Shown in pieces: positions 3,093 to 42,312 of a stretch of DNA of 64,000 nt. The translations under genes and the position numbers were made by a program. The notes under the pieces were generated by a model. That model was not told the origin of the DNA. It saw nothing but the letters and a program-made list of their open reading frames with translations, and did not search any database. The DNA is from Acetobacteraceae bacterium. GTDB lineage: Bacteria; Pseudomonadota; Alphaproteobacteria; Acetobacterales; Acetobacteraceae. Where the stretch lies: NCBI GenBank assembly GCA_027451405.1, contig DAIDJM010000021.1, positions 1-64,000 on the forward strand. Direction: 5' to 3'. Each line of letters opens with the position of its first letter. Position 1 is the stretch's first letter.

Positions 3093-4070
3093 ATGCTCTC
3101 TCTCGGCGAGCGCCGCACCGTGCTCTCCGGCGGCGTGCCGGTCGCCTTCGCGGTGGCGGGCGAGGGGCCGCTCGTGATCCTGATGCATGGCTGGCCGGAG
3201 CAGAGCCTGTCGTGGCGCCACCAGGTGCCCGTGCTGGTGCGGGCCGGCTACCGGGTCGCCGTGCCGGACATGCGGGGCTATGGCGCGTCCGGAAAGCCCG
3301 AGGACCCGGCGGCCTACCGGCTCGACACGCTGGCCGACGACATGGCGGCGGTGGCCGGCGCGCTCGGCGCTGGGCGGTGGGTGGCGGTCGGGCATGATTG
3401 GGGCGCGCCCTGCGCCTGGCGCGCGGCGCTGCGCTTTCCCGATGCGGTTGCCGCCGTGTTCGCGATGAGCGTGCCGCACAGCGCGCCGCCGCCGGCGCCG
3501 TTCCTGGAGATCCTCGACCATTATTTTCCCGACCGGTTCTTCTACATGCGCTATTTTCAGGAGATCGGCGTGGCCGAAGCGGAACTCGAGGCGGCCGATC
3601 TCGAGGCGGCGCTGAAGGCCATCTATTGGAGCGCGAGCGGCCCTGGCGTGCGCGCCGGCGGCAACCGCCAGGCGCCGCGCGACGCGAACCTGCTCGAGAG
3701 CTTCGGCGCGGCGCCGCCCGGACCGCTGCCATTCATGACGGATGCGGAACTGGCGCAGTATGCGTCGCTGTTTCGCGCGGGCGGCTGGCGCGGCCCGCTC
3801 AACTGGTATCGCAATTTCGACCGCAACGCCGCCGATGCGCGCGCCTATGGCGACCCGGTGGTGCGGCAGCCCGCCGGATTTCTCGCCGGCGAACATGAGG
3901 TGGTGCTGCACTTTTTCCCGGGCCAGCTCGAGACCCAGCGGGCGCTCTGCGCCGATCTGCGGATGGAGCGGCGGCCGGCCGGCGCCGGCCATTGGATCCA
4001 GCAGGAAGCGCCGGCCGAGACCAATGCGGCGCTTCTCGAATTCCTGCAAAGCGTGAGGGACCTCCTGTGA
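3093..4070 (+). CDS. Alpha/beta hydrolase, epoxide hydrolase-like
   Basis: A 325-residue alpha/beta-hydrolase of the soluble epoxide hydrolase type. The oxyanion-hole motif HGWPEQS lies at about 36-42, followed by VPDMRGYGASGKP. The nucleophile elbow GHDWGA (about 104-109) has Asp rather than Ser, as in epoxide hydrolases and haloalkane dehalogenases. The catalytic His is in GAGHWIQQEAP near the C terminus. The HGxP motif favours epoxide hydrolase over dehalogenase. The ATG at 3093 follows a CCAGGAG Shine-Dalgarno. The stop overlaps the putA start (GTGA), so the two are translationally coupled; the substrate is not evident. Confidence 0.88.
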   Translation: MLSLGERRTVLSGGVPVAFAVAGEGPLVILMHGWPEQSLSWRHQVPVLVRAGYRVAVPDMRGYGASGKPEDPAAYRLDTLADDMAAVAGALGAGRWVAVGHDWGAPCAWRAALRFPDAVAAVFAMSVPHSAPPPAPFLEILDHYFPDRFFYMRYFQEIGVAEAELEAADLEAALKAIYWSASGPGVRAGGNRQAPRDANLLESFGAAPPGPLPFMTDAELAQYASLFRAGGWRGPLNWYRNFDRNAADARAYGDPVVRQPAGFLAGEHEVVLHFFPGQLETQRALCADLRMERRPAGAGHWIQQEAPAETNAALLEFLQSVRDLL

Positions 4071-10792: not shown

Positions 10793-11484
10793 GCCGGCCC
10801 TATATCGACTTGCCCAGCCCCAATTGGGACGAGCGCAGTGGCGGCGCCGACATGCTGGTGCTGCACTACACCGGCATGCAAACGGCGCAGGCGGCGCTGG
10901 ATCGGCTGCGCGATCCAGAAGCCCGGGTGTCCTCGCATTACGTGGTGGATGAGGACGGGAGCGTCTTTCGGCTGGTGCCGGAGGCGCGGCGTGCCTGGCA
11001 TGCGGGGGTGAGCTATTGGCGCGGCCGGCGGGCGCTCAACGACGTCTCGATCGGGATCGAGATCGTCAATCCTGGACATGAGTGGGGTTATCGCGCCTTC
11101 CCGGATTCGCAGATGAACGCGGTGCGCGCGCTTTGTCGGGATATCCTCGCGCGCTGGCCCATTCCCGCCGCGCATGTGGTGGGGCACAGCGATATTGCCC
11201 CGACCCGCAAACAGGATCCGGGCGAGCTTTTTCCATGGGCCTGGCTCGCGGCAGAGGGGATCGGCGTCTGGCCGGAGGCCGGGGAGGTTGAGGCCGACAC
11301 GGCGCCGGAAGCGGCGCTGGTTACCATCGGCTATGATAGCGATGGGGACGGCGAGGCGAACCTCCGTGCCTTCCAGCGTCATTGGCTGCCGGAAGAGGTC
11401 ACGGGTGTCCTATCGGCGGCCACACTCGCCCGGCTTGGCGCGGTCTGCGGCGCTATGCGGCGGATGGCGCGAGCAGGGCGATGA
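10789..11484 (+). CDS. N-acetylmuramoyl-L-alanine amidase (AmiD/AmpD type)
   Basis: A 231-residue zinc amidase of the Amidase_2 family cutting the MurNAc-L-Ala bond of peptidoglycan or anhydro-muropeptides. Zinc ligands are visible in VLHYTGM (His about 26) and in VVGHSDIAPTRKQDPGELFPW (late His and Asp); RAWHAGVSYWRG and NDVSIGIEIVNPG are standard. A C-terminal stretch (about 180-231, ALVTIGYDSDGD...LRAFQRHWLPE) looks like a short peptidoglycan-binding domain. No signal peptide is seen, so a cytoplasmic AmpD-like recycling role is possible. GTG start overlaps the upstream stop (GTGA). The 3' end overlaps the convergent parB end by 32 bp. Confidence 0.9.
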   Translation: MSRPYIDLPSPNWDERSGGADMLVLHYTGMQTAQAALDRLRDPEARVSSHYVVDEDGSVFRLVPEARRAWHAGVSYWRGRRALNDVSIGIEIVNPGHEWGYRAFPDSQMNAVRALCRDILARWPIPAAHVVGHSDIAPTRKQDPGELFPWAWLAAEGIGVWPEAGEVEADTAPEAALVTIGYDSDGDGEANLRAFQRHWLPEEVTGVLSAATLARLGAVCGAMRRMARAGR

Positions 11485-12336
11485 TGCCGTCGAGCTGGTC
11501 GAGGGATCGGTAAAGGATTGTCACGGCGCCGCCTTTGCCGTCGAACCGGATATTGACGCGAAGCCCGAGCTTCTCGGTGAGATCCCGCTCCAACGCGGCG
11601 GTCTCCGGGTCTTTTTCCGCTTTGGGGCGTGCCGGCTCGGTGTCGCGGCCAGCGGCGAGCGCCTCGGTCTGGCGCACATTGAGGCCCCGGGCGATTACGG
11701 TCGGGGCGAGCGCCGCGGGATCGGGGTGGGCGAGGAGCGCCTTGGCATGGCCCGCCGTGAGCTGGCCGGCCTGGACGGCCTCGCGGACCGGGGCCGGCAG
11801 GTTCAGCAGCCTCAGCGAGTTCGCGATATGGCTGCGGGATTTCCCGACCGCCTGGCCGAGCTGCTCCTGGGTCATATCGAACTCGTCGATGAGACGGCGA
11901 TACCCCTCGGCTTCTTCGATCGCGTTGAGATCCTGACGCTGTAGATTCTCTACCAGGGCGGCTGCCATGGCTTCCGTGTCGCTCAGCCGGCGGACCAGGA
12001 CGGGCACGATGGCGAGCCCGGCCTGCTGTGCGGCGCGCCAGCGGCGTTCGCCGGCAATGAGCTGGAACCGATCCGCGATGTCGGGGTGGGGGCGCGCGAG
12101 CAGCGGCTGCAGGATACCCTGGCTGGCGATGGATTGTGCGAGTTCGGCGAGCGCTTCGGGCGGAATCGCCCGGCGGGGTTGGAACGGCCCGGGCTCGAGA
12201 TGGGTGACCGGCAACGACCGAACGCCGGCGCTCGGGGGAGAGGCCTCCGTTGGGCTGGCCATGGAGGTCTCGGCCTCGGTGTCGCCGAGGAGGGCGGCCA
12301 ACCCCTTGCCGAGGCGCGGTCCGGCTTCGCGTCCCA

Positions 12337-12337
<1 letters not shown>
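11453..12337 (-). CDS. parB: Chromosome-partitioning protein ParB
   Basis: A 294-residue CTP-dependent clamp that loads at parS and slides along DNA. The N terminus GLGKGLAALLG-like stretch (RLGKGLAALLGD) is the ParA-stimulating peptide. The ParB/Srx domain begins at about 40 and includes GERRWRAAQQAG, the CTP-binding box, and LVENLQRQDLNAIEEAEGYRRL. The helix-turn-helix is around VGKSRSHIANSLRLLNLP, and the last 40 residues form the dimerisation domain. The two parS sites lie in rsmG, about 1.4 kb upstream in the same operon. Start ATG 12337 overlaps the parA stop. It is the last gene of mnmE-mnmG-rsmG-parA-parB. Confidence 0.98.
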
Positions 12338-13123
<786 letters not shown>

Positions 13124-13131
<8 letters not shown>

Positions 13132-13747
13132 GGGCAAGGTCCCGGATTTCGAGGATCGACCCGTTCTGGTCCAGCTGGCTGGGATGAAGGCGCAGTTCGA
13201 AGCGCCAGCGGCGTCTGGCATCCTCGATTTCCTGTGTGGCCTGACGGCCTTTGAGAAACAAAGCGGCTCCTCCGGGCACCAGATACGGTTCGGTGTAGGC
13301 CAGCAGCGTGGGGAGGGGCGCAAGTGCGCGCGCCGTGACCCTGGCTGCCGGTTTTAGCGCGGCGCGCTCGATTCGTACTGCGTGGATCCGGGCGGGAGCG
13401 GCTGTTTTTCGGGCGCATTCCCGGAGAAAGGCGGCCTTTCGCTGATCCGCTTCGACGAGGTCGAATTCAGTGCCGGTAGCAATCGCTAGGATCAGCCCCG
13501 GGAAACCAGCACCGCTCCCGAGATCGATCGTGCGGGCGTCAGGAGACAGAAAGGGCGCGAGTTGCAGCGAGTCCTGGATGTGCCGATCCCAGATTCGGTC
13601 GAGGTCCGCCGGACTGACCAGGTTTATGCGCTTCGACCAGGCTTGAAGGAGGTCCACGAATTGGTCGAGGCGCTCCTGCGTTTCACGTGGAACATCGATC
13701 CTTGTTCCACGTGGAACAAACCTCCGCTCCGGCCTCACTGCGTTCAA
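13124..13747 (-). CDS. rsmG: 16S rRNA (guanine527-N7)-methyltransferase
   Basis: A 207-residue SAM-dependent methyltransferase (formerly GidB) modifying G527 of 16S rRNA; loss gives low-level streptomycin resistance in other bacteria. The SAM-binding motif [16 protein letters not shown] is at about 69-84. The first 22 residues contain FVPRGT and DVPRET, which are the translations of two parS sites rather than catalytic sequence. The start is TTG 13747, overlapping the mnmG stop (TTGA) with GGGACG upstream; GTG 13738 is an alternative. Translation through parS here means ParB clamps sit on an actively transcribed gene. Confidence 0.96.
13679..13694. promoter_or_regulatory. parS centromere site 2
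   Basis: On the minus strand TGTTCCACGTGAAACG matches the classical parS TGTTCCACGTGAAACA at 15 of 16 positions. It is 24 bp from site 1 and is also in rsmG, translated as VPRET. The two sites start 24 bp apart, a little over two helical turns. Confidence 0.85.
13703..13718. promoter_or_regulatory. parS centromere site 1 (perfect palindrome)
   Basis: TGTTCCACGTGGAACA is a perfect 16-bp palindrome identical to the alphaproteobacterial parS consensus. It lies inside the first codons of rsmG, where it is translated as VPRGT. Confidence 0.95.
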
Positions 13748-33133: not shown

Positions 33134-34201
33134 TCAGGCCGCGACGCGGATCGGGCAATCCGCGTGGTTGGCGGGACAGAAGCGGCCGCCGGCGAAGCTG
33201 CAGAGGCCGGGACCCATGCCGCGCGCGGCCTGCACCAGATCGGCGAGCGCCGCGATGAAGCCCGGATCGTCGTTCTGCGCCGGCGCGCGGAAATAGCCTG
33301 GCACGCCCTGCTTCTCGGCGAGCTCGCGATATTCGACGTCGAGCTCGACCAGCGTCTCGCTATGTTCGGAGACGAAGGCGATCGGCACGACGAGCACCGC
33401 GACTTTGTCGTGCGCGGCCCGTTCGATCGCCTCCTCGGTCGAGGGATCAAGCCATTTCTGCGGGGTCGCGCGGGACTGGTAGCAGACCTGGTGGTCGAGG
33501 TCCGGCTCGCCCAGCGCTTCCACGACGCGGGCGACCGTCGACTCGACCTGGAACTGATAGGGGTCGCCCTCGCGCACGATCTTCTCCGGCAGGCCGTGCG
33601 CCGAGAACAGCACCCGGACCGGCGCCTTCGATTCCGCGCGCGCCGCATCGAGCGCCCGGCGCACGAGAGCCGCCGTGGCGGCGACATAGCCGCCATCGTC
33701 GCCCCAGCAGCACAGCGTCGTCACCGGCCGCGCCAGACCGGCGCGAGCCGCGGCGTCCCGCCAATCGTCGAGCGAGCTGCCCGAGGTGGTCGTGGAGAAT
33801 TGCGGATAGAGCGGCAGCAGCACGATCTCGTCGGGATTCCAGGCGCGCACCGCACGGGCAGCCTCGAGCGCGAACGGATGCCAGTAGCGCATCGCAATGA
33901 AGCACTTGCCGTCCACGCCGCGCGCCGCGAGAGCCGCCTCGAGCGCGTCGGCCTGCGCCTGGGTGAGTTCGAGCAGCGGCGACTTGCCGCCGAGCAGCCG
34001 GTAATTCTCGCTCGCGGGCTTGACGCGGGCGCGGGCGATGATCTGGGCCAGCAAAGGCCGGATGAAGAACGGCACCCGCAGGATCGCGGGATCGCGGAAC
34101 AGATTCAGCAGGAAGGGCTTGACCGCCTCCGGACTGTCGGGGCCGCCGAGATTGAACAGAACGACCGCGATGCGCGGCGCGCGGCGCACATCCTGTTTCA
34201 T
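33134..34201 (-). CDS. hemH: Ferrochelatase
   Basis: A 355-residue enzyme inserting ferrous iron into protoporphyrin IX. VVLFNLGGPDSPEAVKPFLLNLFRDPAIL is the conserved start, the catalytic His is in VLFSAHGLPEKIVREGDPY (about 200), and CYQSRATPQKWLDPSTEEAI follows. The C-terminal tail has three Cys (GLCSFAGGRFCPANHADCPIR) and an internal pair TTLCCWGDD, suggesting a [2Fe-2S] cluster as in Caulobacter ferrochelatase. ATG 34201 overlaps the hemE stop. Confidence 0.97.
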   Translation of the reverse strand: MKQDVRRAPRIAVVLFNLGGPDSPEAVKPFLLNLFRDPAILRVPFFIRPLLAQIIARARVKPASENYRLLGGKSPLLELTQAQADALEAALAARGVDGKCFIAMRYWHPFALEAARAVRAWNPDEIVLLPLYPQFSTTTSGSSLDDWRDAAARAGLARPVTTLCCWGDDGGYVAATAALVRRALDAARAESKAPVRVLFSAHGLPEKIVREGDPYQFQVESTVARVVEALGEPDLDHQVCYQSRATPQKWLDPSTEEAIERAAHDKVAVLVVPIAFVSEHSETLVELDVEYRELAEKQGVPGYFRAPAQNDDPGFIAALADLVQAARGMGPGLCSFAGGRFCPANHADCPIRVAA

Positions 34202-35226
34202 GTCGCCCGCAGCGTCTCGACCAGATCGGCCACGTGCTCGGGCGGCGTGTGCGGCAGGATGCCATGGCCGAGATTGAAGATGTGCGGGCGGCCGCGCAGC
34301 GAATCGCGGATCCGCAGCGCCTCGGCGCGCATCGCCTCGCCGCCGGCGATCACCGCGATCGGGTCGAGATTGCCCTGCACCGCGACGCCGTCCGGCAGCG
34401 AGGCCGCGATCGCCGCCGCGTCCACGCTGGTGTCGAGCGCCACCGCATCGACGCCGGTGCGCTCGGCGTAATCGGCCGCGAGCGTGCCGGCGAGACGCGG
34501 AAAGCCGATCACCGGCACGCCGGGATGACGCTGGTTCAGCGCATCGACGATGGCGGCGGTGGGCTCCATCACATGCAGCGCGAACTGGCTGGGCGGCAGA
34601 ATGCCGGCCCAGGTGTCGAACAGCATGACGGTCTCGGCACCGGCTTCGATCTGGGCCGACAGATAGTCGATCGTCGCCTGCACCAGCACGGTGAGCAGCG
34701 AGGCGAAGAAATCGGGCGTCGCGTAGGCGAGCCGGCGGGTCTCGGCGAAATCGCGCGAACCGCCGCCCTCGACCATGTAGCAGGCGACCGTGAAGGGGCT
34801 GCCGGCGAAGCCGATCATGGTGGTGTGGTCGGGCAGCGAGGCGCGGGTGCGGCGCACGGTTTCCATGACCGGCGCGGTGAGTGCCTCGGCGCGGGCCGGA
34901 TCGAGCACGGCAAGCCCGCGGCTGTCGCGGATCGGGGTCATGACCGGCCCCTCGCCCTCGACGAACTCGAGCGACTGACCGAGCGCCCAGGGCAGGATCA
35001 GGATGTCGCTGAACAGGATCGCGCCATCCATGCCGAAGCGGCGCACCGGCTGCAGCGTGATCTCGGTGGCGAGATCGGGCGTGGTGCAGCGCGCGATGAA
35101 GCCGCCCGCCGTCTCCCGGATCGCCCGGTATTCCGGCAGGTAACGTCCGGCCTGGCGCATCAGCCAGATCGGCGGCGGCCAGACAGGCTCGCCGGCAAGC
35201 GCACGCAGCATCGGTTTGGCGTTCAT
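34198..35226 (-). CDS. hemE: Uroporphyrinogen decarboxylase
   Basis: A 342-residue cytosolic enzyme converting uroporphyrinogen III to coproporphyrinogen III. Signature 1 PPIWLMRQAGRYLPEYRAIR is at about 18-37, the catalytic Asp is in GAILFSDILILPWALG, and signature 2 region GFAGSPFTVACYMVEGGGSRDF is present. ATG 35226. It is divergent from the PPDK regulator across a 332-bp spacer, the gene arrangement that flanks the replication origin of Caulobacter, and leads the hemE-hemH-folC operon. Confidence 0.97.
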   Translation of the reverse strand: MNAKPMLRALAGEPVWPPPIWLMRQAGRYLPEYRAIRETAGGFIARCTTPDLATEITLQPVRRFGMDGAILFSDILILPWALGQSLEFVEGEGPVMTPIRDSRGLAVLDPARAEALTAPVMETVRRTRASLPDHTTMIGFAGSPFTVACYMVEGGGSRDFAETRRLAYATPDFFASLLTVLVQATIDYLSAQIEAGAETVMLFDTWAGILPPSQFALHVMEPTAAIVDALNQRHPGVPVIGFPRLAGTLAADYAERTGVDAVALDTSVDAAAIAASLPDGVAVQGNLDPIAVIAGGEAMRAEALRIRDSLRGRPHIFNLGHGILPHTPPEHVADLVETLRAT

Positions 35227-35558
35227 GGCGGCATCCGCGCGGGGAATCACGGCGACGGCGCCGTTCGCCGCGTCCCCTGCCCTATCTTTCATAAGAGAGT
35301 CCAGAACCTGGGGTGTCTGTTGGAGCCTGTGAATCGAGGGGTACCCGGAACCCGCCCGCTGATCCGCAATCTGTCCACATTCGCCGATCTGTCCAGAGCC
35401 CTGATCGCATGGCTTTTTCCGGGCTTGTCCCGAAATCCCGGCCGACCCCTCCGATCGATCCACCGCGCGCGGACCTTGTGCGGTTTGTCCCCGGTTTGCG
35501 CCGCCGCCGGGAAGGCGCATCCTGGCGTCGCCACTTATCCCCGTTATCCTCGCCTTTC
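35227..35558. other. Candidate chromosomal replication origin (oriC)
   Basis: A 332-bp spacer between divergent hemE and the PPDK regulator, the position of Cori in Caulobacter. Seven DnaA-box-like 9-mers lie in one orientation: TGATCCGCA (35360), CTGTCCACA (35371), CTGTCCAGA (35389), TTGTCCCGA (35425), TTGTCCCCG (35485), TTATCCCCG (35535) and TTATCCTCG (35544). ATCTGTCCA is directly repeated 18 bp apart. Three GANTC sites (CcrM methylation motif) are at 35244, 35297 and 35331. No long AT-rich unwinding stretch and no TTAA-N7-TTAA CtrA site are seen. The call rests on context and degenerate boxes. Confidence 0.6.
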
Positions 35559-36422
35559 ATGAACCCGGCCCGCATCAACCTTCACCTCGTCTCCGATGCG
35601 ACCGGCGAGACGCTGAACTCGATCGTGCGCGCGACGGTGGCGCAGTTCGAGCCGGTGCATGTGGTGTACCATCGCTGGAGCCTGATCCGGACGCGGTTCC
35701 AGCTGCACCGGGTGCTCGAGGGCATCGAGGCCGATCCGGGCCCGGTGCTCTCGACGGTGGTGGACCGGGCGCTGCGCGGCGATCTCGAGGAGGCCTGCCA
35801 GCGGCTCGGCCTGCCGGTGGTGAACGTGCTCGATCCGGTGATGGCGCTGCTGCAGGAGCAGATCGGCGAGCAGGCGGCGGCCCGGCCGGGCCGCCAATAC
35901 AAGCTCGACGCCGATTATTTCCGGCGGATCGACGCCATCCATTTCGTGCTCGCGCATGACGACGGACAGGCCCAGTCCGGGATCGCCGAGGCCGACGTGA
36001 TCCTGGTGGGCGTCTCGCGCAGCTCCAAGACGCCGACCAGCTTCTATCTGGCCAATCGCGGCATCAAGGCGGCGAACGTGCCGCTGGTGCCGGGCCTGCC
36101 GGACCCGCCGGGCCTCGACGATCCGCGCTGCCCGGTGGTGGGGCTGACGCTCGACGCGGAATCGCTGATCGAGATCCGCCGCCACCGGCTCAAGCTCATC
36201 GCCCAGGGTCACAGCGCGGGGGTTCTGCGTCAGGAGAGCGCCGACTATGTCGATCTCGACTCGGTCAAGGCGGAGCTGCTGTGGGCGCGGCGGCTCTGCA
36301 CCCGGCGCGGCTGGCCGGTGGTGGACGTGACGCGCCGCTCGATCGAGGAGACGGCCGCGACGGTTCTGCAATTGATGCAGGCCTGGCATCTGCGGCGCGA
36401 GCGCGAGATCCGGCCCGCCTGA
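35559..36422 (+). CDS. Pyruvate, phosphate dikinase regulatory protein (DUF299)
   Basis: A 287-residue bifunctional kinase/pyrophosphorylase controlling PPDK (or PEP synthase) by phosphorylating an active-site threonine with [28 protein letters not shown] is the conserved N terminus; the P-loop-like [18 protein letters not shown] lies at about 148-165, and [17 protein letters not shown] near 205. ATG 35559. The gene is the RP001/CC0001 homologue that borders the origin in Rickettsia and Caulobacter, which is why the spacer before it was examined. Confidence 0.95.
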
Positions 36423-41187: not shown

Positions 41188-42312
41188 ATGAAACTGAAGG
41201 CCGACCGCGCCACGTTGCTTCGGGCGCTGGGCCACATCCAGAGCGTGGCCGAGAAACGGAACACGATCCCGATCCTGGCCAACGTGCTGATCGCGGTGAA
41301 GGACGGACGGCTTTCGTTCACGGCCACCGACATGGAAATCGCCATCGTCGAGGAAGTGGCGGCCAGCACCAGCCGCAATGGCGCGGCCACCGCGCCGGCG
41401 GCGACGCTCTACGAAATCGTCCGCAAGCTGCCGGAGACCGCCGAGATCGAGTTCGATCATCCCGGCGGCGACGCGCCGCTGGGCTTACGCGCCGGGCGCT
41501 TCAACACCAGCCTCGTGGTGCAGCCGGTCGAGGATTTTCCGAGCATGACGGCGGGCTCGCTGCCGCACCGCTTCCATCTGCCGGCACTGGTGCTGCGCGG
41601 CCTGATCGACCGCACCCGTTTCGCGATCAGCACGGAAGAGACGCGCTATTACCTCAACGGCATCTATCTGCACCGCGCCGAATCGGACGGGCATCCGGTG
41701 CTGCGGGCGGTCGCGACCGACGGGCACCGGCTCGCGCGCGTCGAGGAGCCGCTGCCGGAAGGGGCGAGCGCGATGCCGGGCGTCATCGTGCCCCGCAAGA
41801 CCGTCAACGAGCTGCGGCGGCTGCTCGAGGATGAGAGCGGCAGCGTCGAGGTCGCGCTGTCCGACACGAAAATCCAGTTCACGGTGGGACCGATCACGCT
41901 GACCAGCAAGCTGATCGATGGTACGTTCCCGGAATATGAGCGCGTGATCCCGAGCGGGAACGACAAGGTGCTGCGGGTCGGCAAGAAGGATTTCGCCGAC
42001 GCGGTGGCGCGCGTCGCGGCCATCAGCAGCGAGCGCTCGCGGCCCGTCAAGCTCAGCCTGCAGAAGGATCTGCTGACGCTCTCGGCGGCCAGCGCCGAGC
42101 AGGGCAGCGCCGTCGAGGAACTCGACAGGGACCATGTGGAATATGCGGCAGGCCCGCTCGAGATCGGCTTCCAGGCACGGTATCTGAACGACATCACCGA
42201 CCAGATCACCGAAAACGTGGAATTCTGTTTTTCGGACGGATCGGCGCCGACCGTGGTGCGCGACGCGGGCGATCAGTCGGCGCTCTACGTGCTCATGCCG
42301 ATGCGGGTCTGA
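41188..42312 (+). CDS. dnaN: DNA polymerase III beta sliding clamp
   Basis: A 374-residue ring-forming clamp that tethers DNA polymerase. MKLKADRATLLRALGHIQSVAEKRNTIPILANVLI is the conserved N terminus, and it ends DQSALYVLMPMRV, the family C terminus. Three beta-clamp repeats are visible. Length is normal. It stands alone here, without dnaA or recF, about 5.6 kb from the candidate oriC. ATG 41188; the 125-bp upstream gap probably contains its promoter. Confidence 0.98.
   Translation: MKLKADRATLLRALGHIQSVAEKRNTIPILANVLIAVKDGRLSFTATDMEIAIVEEVAASTSRNGAATAPAATLYEIVRKLPETAEIEFDHPGGDAPLGLRAGRFNTSLVVQPVEDFPSMTAGSLPHRFHLPALVLRGLIDRTRFAISTEETRYYLNGIYLHRAESDGHPVLRAVATDGHRLARVEEPLPEGASAMPGVIVPRKTVNELRRLLEDESGSVEVALSDTKIQFTVGPITLTSKLIDGTFPEYERVIPSGNDKVLRVGKKDFADAVARVAAISSERSRPVKLSLQKDLLTLSAASAEQGSAVEELDRDHVEYAAGPLEIGFQARYLNDITDQITENVEFCFSDGSAPTVVRDAGDQSALYVLMPMRV

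Follow-up and report, generated by a model that had tools for sequence, protein, structure and literature searches.

A candidate chromosome replication origin between hemE and the PPDK-regulator gene of an Acetobacteraceae bacterium, with DnaA-like boxes at conserved positions in much of the family

Results

The spacer between hemE and the PPDK-regulator gene

The 332-bp spacer (positions 35227-35558) that separates the divergent genes for uroporphyrinogen decarboxylase (hemE, minus strand, 34198-35226; TIGR01464, 388.8 bits) and the PPDK/PEP-synthase regulator (plus strand, 35559-36422; NF003742, 304.5 bits) is, with a probability that we put at about 0.92, the oriC of this Acetobacteraceae genome, and it is of the hemE/COG1806 type of Alphaproteobacteria. 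It lies in the window, i.e., the whole 64,000-nt stretch of DNA that was analysed, which comprises bases 1-64000 of a 110,627-bp contig (C21) of a draft genome of 67 contigs and 3.37 Mb. A sequence-only reading had proposed an origin between these two genes, and the proposal is supported by DnaA-like boxes at fixed positions in most of the spacers examined, by the GC skew of four relatives and by two dif-like sites; the profile matches to both genes bore out the divergent arrangement that it described. We take the regulator gene to be COG1806/DUF299. PMC1914354 defines the hemE/COG1806 origin as a spacer between these genes, which is what the window contains, and places hemE and COG1806 on either side of Caulobacter Cori, so that the flanking genes are, as had been claimed, those of Cori. 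The same source treats hemE-linked origins as known in Caulobacter and describes them in Rickettsia.

The neighbours named in the earlier reading were also located, with dnaN (41188-42312) about 6 kb to the right of the spacer and a parABS-like locus to its left. The latter consists of parB (11453-12337), about 22 kb from the spacer, an adjoining parA-like gene (12337-13323) that scored below the NCBIfam cut-offs, and a parS-like pair at 13679-13718, which accounted for all 4 strand-hits (0.03 expected). Both par genes stand beside rsmG-mnmG-mnmE, and the order mnmE-mnmG-rsmG-parA-parB was identical, on the hemE side, in the window and in two relatives (G087 and G120).

DnaA-like boxes in the spacer

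On the plus strand, eight 9-mers matched TTATCCACA at 6 or more of 9 positions (35360, 35371, 35389, 35425, 35456, 35485, 35535 and 35544), against 1.86 +/- 1.28 expected, and only 1 of 5000 dinucleotide shuffles reached this number. The spacer thus carries a cluster of DnaA boxes above chance, as hemE/COG1806 origins do, although single boxes match at just 6-7 of 9 positions. Seven DnaA-like 9-mers in one orientation had been reported; the excess is real, with eight boxes instead of seven, but an inverted box, CGATTCACA (35328-35336, minus strand, 6/9), had been overlooked. The bare count of inverted 9-mers was at chance (at least one in 3793 of 5000 shuffles), yet the position of this box is conserved in relatives. 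No 9-mer of the spacer lies within one mismatch of TTATCCACA, so that a search for canonical boxes taken alone would have misled.

Each of the six positions conserved in the family (see below) is occupied in the window by a box that matches at 6 or more of 9 bases. These are the inverted box at -10, then CTGTCCACA (35371-35379, 7/9) at +34, the weak boxes TTGTCCCGA (35425-35433) at +88 and TTGTCCCCG (35485-35493) at +148, the latter 50 bp ahead of the next box, and finally TTATCCCCG (35535-35543) at +198 and TTATCCTCG (35544-35552) at +207, all five on the plus strand. The inverted box is adjoined by the conserved anchor GGGGTACCC (35338-35346) and stands beside GGGGTACC (35328-35345 for the two together); the stretch of lowest stability in the vicinity (35281-35310) adjoins them. 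The 9-mers at 35360, 35389 and 35456 fall outside the six positions; the first corresponds to +22, which peaks weakly in spacers of the window's own type (4.55) and more strongly in the GTAC-free set.

Other motifs of the spacer were then considered. The direct repeat ATCTGTCCA was found (35369 and 35387), and the three GANTC sites that had been pointed out are present (35244, 35297 and 35331), but their number is not above chance (mean 1.95; three or more in 1528 of 5000 shuffles). With consensus patterns for CtrA and IHF, neither TTAA-N7-TTAA with up to two mismatches, which agrees with the earlier statement that CtrA sites are lacking, nor an IHF-like site was found in the spacer; the CtrA and IHF sites of Cori, a feature of its control, found no counterpart there. 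A terminator-like hairpin at 35300-35312 was near chance (1 found, 0.5 in shuffles).

A layout conserved across the family

A hemE match was obtained in 145 of 150 genomes searched, and 86 of the 145 hemE upstream regions, all of the same family and the window's among them, were compared. In 62 of them a PPDK regulator was located no more than about 500 bp away (PPDK-type). The motif GGGGTAC is present in 50 regions, namely 30 PPDK-type (including the window) and 20 others, while 32 PPDK-type regions lack it and 4 have neither; the named loci that share the anchor include Gluconobacter, Asaia and Acetobacter, which makes Acetobacteraceae a safe assignment. One spacer counted among those without the regulator (L171, from G077) has the +198/+207 box pair and was probably missed by the motif search; it was kept in the counts. 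Aligning the spacers for conserved 9-mers, a check that had been recommended, revealed fixed-position boxes in most of them, and the conserved blocks in the alignment of the 62 PPDK-type spacers were gggcctgtggatNNcggggtacc, tgtccaca, ttatccccg and gttatccccgctatNctc.

The spacers were anchored on GGGGTAC without gaps and the mean likeness to a DnaA box (matches of 9) was computed at each position. In 29 PPDK-type spacers, the window being excluded, peaks were observed at -10 (inverted, 7.1), +34 (7.34), +198 (6.21), +148 (5.72), +207 (5.55) and +88 (5.48), whereas 60 shuffled sets never exceeded 4.03. The 20 GGGGTAC spacers without an adjacent PPDK gene share four of these peaks, at -10 (7.35), +34 (7.1), +88 (6.9) and +148 (6.5), against a shuffle maximum of 4.35; they have extra peaks at +98, +188 and, inverted, at +114 and +44, while +198 is down to 4.95 and +207 is outside the twelve highest. 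A third set, 21 PPDK-type spacers without GTAC, was anchored on the inverted box and its G-run, so that -10 is given there by construction; peaks were found at +35 (6.19), +23 (5.86) and +198 (5.29), +88 was weak (4.71), and +148 and +207 were outside the top eight. Comparison of the three sets indicated that a core is constant and the remainder varies. In 33 spacers, a few genomes being present twice (e.g., L003 and L062), the distance from the anchor to the +198 box was 197-199 bp in 21 and 195-200 bp in 25, despite a distance from hemE to the anchor that varied from 81 to 217 bp.

A template of the six sites scored 39 at the spacer (z 8.1), the unique maximum on both strands of the 110,627-bp contig, with no more than 29 elsewhere on it, no more than 30 in 20 kb around dnaA (contig C45), and none of 20,000 shuffles reaching 39. 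The template exceeded all of 100 shuffles in 74 of the 86 family spacers and failed in 12. From a further set of 80 loci, 79 were scanned, and 44 exceeded their 100 shuffles while 35 gave no signal. Nine of the 44 are Sphingomonadales loci (L093, L095, L096, L100, L107, L110, L113, L115 and L118), in which a similar anchor, again with a G-run, precedes the gene motif by 248-257 bp; the template test was failed by two Roseomonas loci (L087 and L097).

A single copy of the box-A pattern CTGTGNNTNNNGGGGTAC exists in the window's genome, at the spacer, and 38 of 120 family genomes have 40 copies in all (82 have none; the reversed control gave 10 matches), with 36 of the 40 at the hemE spacer as checked against hemE positions. 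The four copies away from hemE were set aside; three of them have, by eye, a common upstream sequence and look like ends of a mobile element, and copies of CTGTGGATNNCGGGGTAC away from hemE (L292, L293 and L294, also L291) gave the same picture. Separately, in one Acidocella MAG and five proteobacterial loci (L075, L080, L083-L085 and L088) GGGGGTTAA or a similar sequence replaces GGGGTACC; these loci keep the G-run and the inverted box, and what varies is the middle of the palindrome.

A probable unwinding element beside the inverted box

Origins have AT-rich or least stable DNA by their DnaA boxes, and here the least stable 30-mer of 35101-35560 is 35281-35310 (nearest-neighbour dG -36.4; 0.17% of the 30-mers of the window are less stable), beside the inverted box, which makes it a probable DNA unwinding element. 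In relatives, the AT content of the unwinding side was 57% and 65% in the two GGGGTAC sets, compared with 40% and 47% across the anchor; in the window, the -75 to -34 stretch has just 43% AT. On the strand leading into the box, TAG outnumbered CTA by 44 to 8 in the 30 PPDK-type spacers, window included, and by 18 to 1 in the 20 others, an excess that fits the DnaA-trio idea as presented in PMC8287927. The place of this trio, 35311-35327 on the plus strand, is degenerate in the window, where inspection by eye found no run of three NAN triplets; at least three of these next to a DnaA box characterize a basal unwinding system (BUS) according to the same paper.

Two classes of boxes and the specificity of DnaA

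The sequence-only reading had taken the CCCC and CCTC endings for a lineage-specific DnaA box, a claim that the comparison did not support. The genome has a single PF00308 match, and in an alignment of its domain IV with the E. coli DnaA chain 1j1v_A, from the complex of DnaA with DNA, the motifs RSVARPRQ, SLP and RDHTTV are kept, GGR being replaced by GNR beside RDHTTV; the recognition helix is thus conserved. Furthermore, near-canonical consensus sequences (TTATCCACA at -10 and TTGTCCACA at +34) and weak ones (TTATCCCCA, TTATCCCCG and CTATCCTC at +88 to +207) hold different fixed positions in the same spacers, with endings in CACA at -10 and +34, CCCC at +148 and +198, and CCTC at +207. Each base of CACA at -10 and +34 is conserved in at least 97% of the PPDK set and at least 90% of the other GGGGTAC set, and the window keeps it at both places. 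A DnaA of altered specificity in this lineage, with a true CCCC-type box, would explain why TTATCCCCG is met more often than any other form at +148 and +198 of the PPDK spacers, but the kept domain IV motifs and the conserved CACA make it very improbable. The box consensus differs by position, not by lineage, and these alignments suggest boxes of two affinity classes instead of an altered recognition sequence; a logic of weak sites, with G- and W-boxes, has been described for Caulobacter Cori in PMC4468827.

Boxes at the start of the PPDK-regulator gene

The start codon of the PPDK regulator follows the +207 box after 6 bases and the +198 box after 15, and in the spacers for which no such gene was found +198 and +207 fade as parts of its promoter would. 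These are the grounds for reading the spacer as the divergent promoter region of hemE and the PPDK regulator only, with the 9-mers as regulatory or promoter sites. Nevertheless, such a role would not account for the positions -10, +34, +88 and +148, which are kept in spacers where no PPDK gene was found, nor for the skew of four relatives, which points to the hemE spacer (see below); moreover, a search of 35150-35620 with the E. coli sigma-70 consensus gave nothing and an Rfam scan of the spacer returned no family, so that a promoter region and nothing else is scarcely probable. At the gene start itself, within 35535-35558, TTATCCCCGTTATCCTC ends 7 bases before the PPDK-regulator ATG, where no ribosome-binding site is evident; a similar motif precedes the gene in many relatives. 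A leaderless promoter overlapping the DnaA box pair is possible, and TTATCCTCG (35544-35552) may instead be its -10 element.

GC skew, dif-like sites and the rest of the genome

GC skew was analysed in four relatives with chromosome-sized contigs (G087, G142, G148 and G061), from 20 sampled segments of 20 kb in each. The tests were one-sided and took the samples to be exchangeable, and their p-values should be read as approximate. The contrast between the halves defined by hemE was 0.018 (p 0.0007), 0.048 (p 0.0003), 0.075 (p 0.0001) and 0.024 (p 0.02), respectively. The first harmonic placed the origin at 598 kb with hemE at 567 kb in G087, at 2425 with hemE at 2301 in G142, at 25 with hemE at 3193 of 3198 in G148, and at 113 with hemE at 3874 of 3907 in G061, i.e., with offsets of 31, 124, 31 and 146 kb, within one sampling step. 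As a skew origin dnaA was rejected in G087 (p 0.44) and G148 (p 0.99), where it is far from hemE. In G142, dnaA, 323 kb away, scored p 0.004, and in G061, where the skew is weak and dnaA is near hemE, the two are inseparable (dnaA p 0.02). In Acetobacter pasteurianus 386B, oriC was placed near dnaA, according to PMC3751514. A dif search of 11 genomes with a consensus sequence gave three matches, each with 3 mismatches: the point opposite hemE is about 130 kb away from the match in G061 and about 50 kb away from that in G087, and the third, on a secondary contig (C4) of G022, was left out, the reversed control matching once, also in G022. With this consensus no dif-like site was found in the window's own genome.

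Several observations were counted against the origin reading, namely the absence of a skew flip on the window's contig, the degenerate trio, the inverted box of just 6/9, the 12 template failures among 86, the +148 and +207 positions outside the top eight in the PPDK-type spacers without GTAC, the dnaA scores in G061 and G142, the mismatches of the dif matches with the one control match, and the placement of oriC near dnaA in A. pasteurianus 386B. On the contig, GC skew is positive on both sides of the spacer (left +0.035, right +0.004) rather than changing from negative to positive across it, and neither gene strand nor codon-position-3 skew flips there; to the right, most of the coding sequence is on the minus strand, as judged with a rough ORF picker. 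The first three of these would be understandable if the family origin had once been here and initiation had since moved in this lineage, leaving a decaying relic. That loss can happen is indicated by two genomes of about 2 Mb (G032 and G117, loci L008 and L012), which keep hemE while the spacer has neither GGGGTAC nor TTATCCC and fails the template; in these small genomes the origin may have moved elsewhere. In the window, however, the template score of 39 ties for 15th of 50 GGGGTAC spacers, all six positions keep at least 6/9 and the box-A pattern is nowhere else in the genome. Moreover, across the 3.37 Mb TTATCCMCR gave 22 matches, against 57 of its reversed control, without a cluster and with none on the dnaA contig. 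The spacer itself has just one of these matches, so that this search rules out a cluster of canonical boxes elsewhere and not one of weak boxes, which is excluded on C21 and in 20 kb of the dnaA contig only. A relic is thus hardly to be credited.

Palindromes that change between lineages

In the 20 GGGGTAC spacers without an adjacent PPDK gene, GTAC occurred 217 times against 30.9 expected (about 7-fold, z 34; GTAC-rich spacers include L011, L014, L018, L024, L026-L028 and L147), and in the 21 PPDK-type spacers without GTAC (L017, L020, L174, L197 and 17 further ones without GGGGTAC) GANTC occurred 90 times against 22.5 (4-fold, z 14.4), with up to 11 per spacer; these z-scores come from shuffles that ignore relatedness. 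Both motifs are weak in the window's own set (GTAC 49 against 32.5, GANTC 48 against 32.1). Clusters of three GTAC recur in GTAC-rich spacers among the matches listed from 8 genomes, a qualitative observation, as the word that served as reversed control is much more frequent. We know of no factor that binds the GTAC palindromes of origin spacers. The GANTC enrichment suggests, as far as motif counts go, a CcrM-type control in that group; a GcrA gene was present in the window's genome and in all 6 relatives searched, which is uninformative on the spacer.

It is possible, although somewhat doubtful, that a core arrangement of DnaA boxes (an inverted one with its G-rich anchor, a plus-strand box about 34 bp on, and co-oriented boxes at conserved distances) is inherited throughout the Acetobacteraceae while lineages swap the palindromes, GTAC in acetic acid bacteria and GANTC in a second PPDK-type group. 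Some Sphingomonadales have a similar anchor about as far from the gene, and the window has neither strong GTAC nor strong GANTC. The failure of the +148 and +207 positions to recur in the GANTC group weakens this reading.

Discussion

The box positions, their conserved spacing, the peak of instability and the skew of relatives were observed, and the DnaA binding, the site of melting and the order of loading are the parts of the origin reading that we infer. DnaA would be loaded at 35371 and at the inverted box of 35328, and would cooperatively fill the weak co-oriented boxes at 35425, 35485, 35535 and 35544; the resulting filament, registered by the conserved spacings, would melt the AT-richer 35281-35310 beside the inverted box, where the helicase would be loaded. 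The terminal box pair would overlap, or double as, the start of the PPDK-regulator gene.

In the left half of E. coli oriC the unwinding element is followed by R1, i.e., an AT-rich element, an inverted box of the TGTGGATAA type and an array of weaker sites, and the window has the same succession; in contrast, GGGGTACC is not known from E. coli, and the weak sites of the window are mostly 50-60 bp apart whereas those of E. coli are close-packed. The spacer resembles Caulobacter crescentus Cori in its flanking genes, in its DnaA sites, of which two are moderate and several weak, and in the nearness of parABS (PMC1914354 and PMC4468827). It would differ from Cori in that no CtrA-like or IHF-like site was found by the consensus patterns and in carrying GGGGTACC beside the inverted box. 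As in the BUS of the Bacillus subtilis type (PMC8287927), relatives have TAG-rich triplets, a short GC-rich gap, a DnaA box and an AT-richer tract; unlike in the BUS, the trio of the window is degenerate, there is one inverted box and not a tandem pair, and the next conserved box starts 35 bp past the end of the inverted box in the opposite orientation.

The location of the origin was to be expected; what appears to be new is the layout in its details, together with the add-on motifs that vary. Our literature search found no paper joining Acetobacteraceae, oriC and DnaA boxes, and none on the architecture of Acetobacteraceae origins among the matches listed. In much of the family the layout can be read with a precision of one or two bases, which could allow origins to be called in draft genomes without skew, and it separates boxes whose position is conserved from those that can change. 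If the core layout with swapped palindromes is true, control systems of the origin would have been exchanged on a conserved initiator platform, and the GTAC arrays would imply an undescribed origin-binding factor. The family would then offer a natural experiment in which the control of the origin is swapped while the DnaA platform stays.
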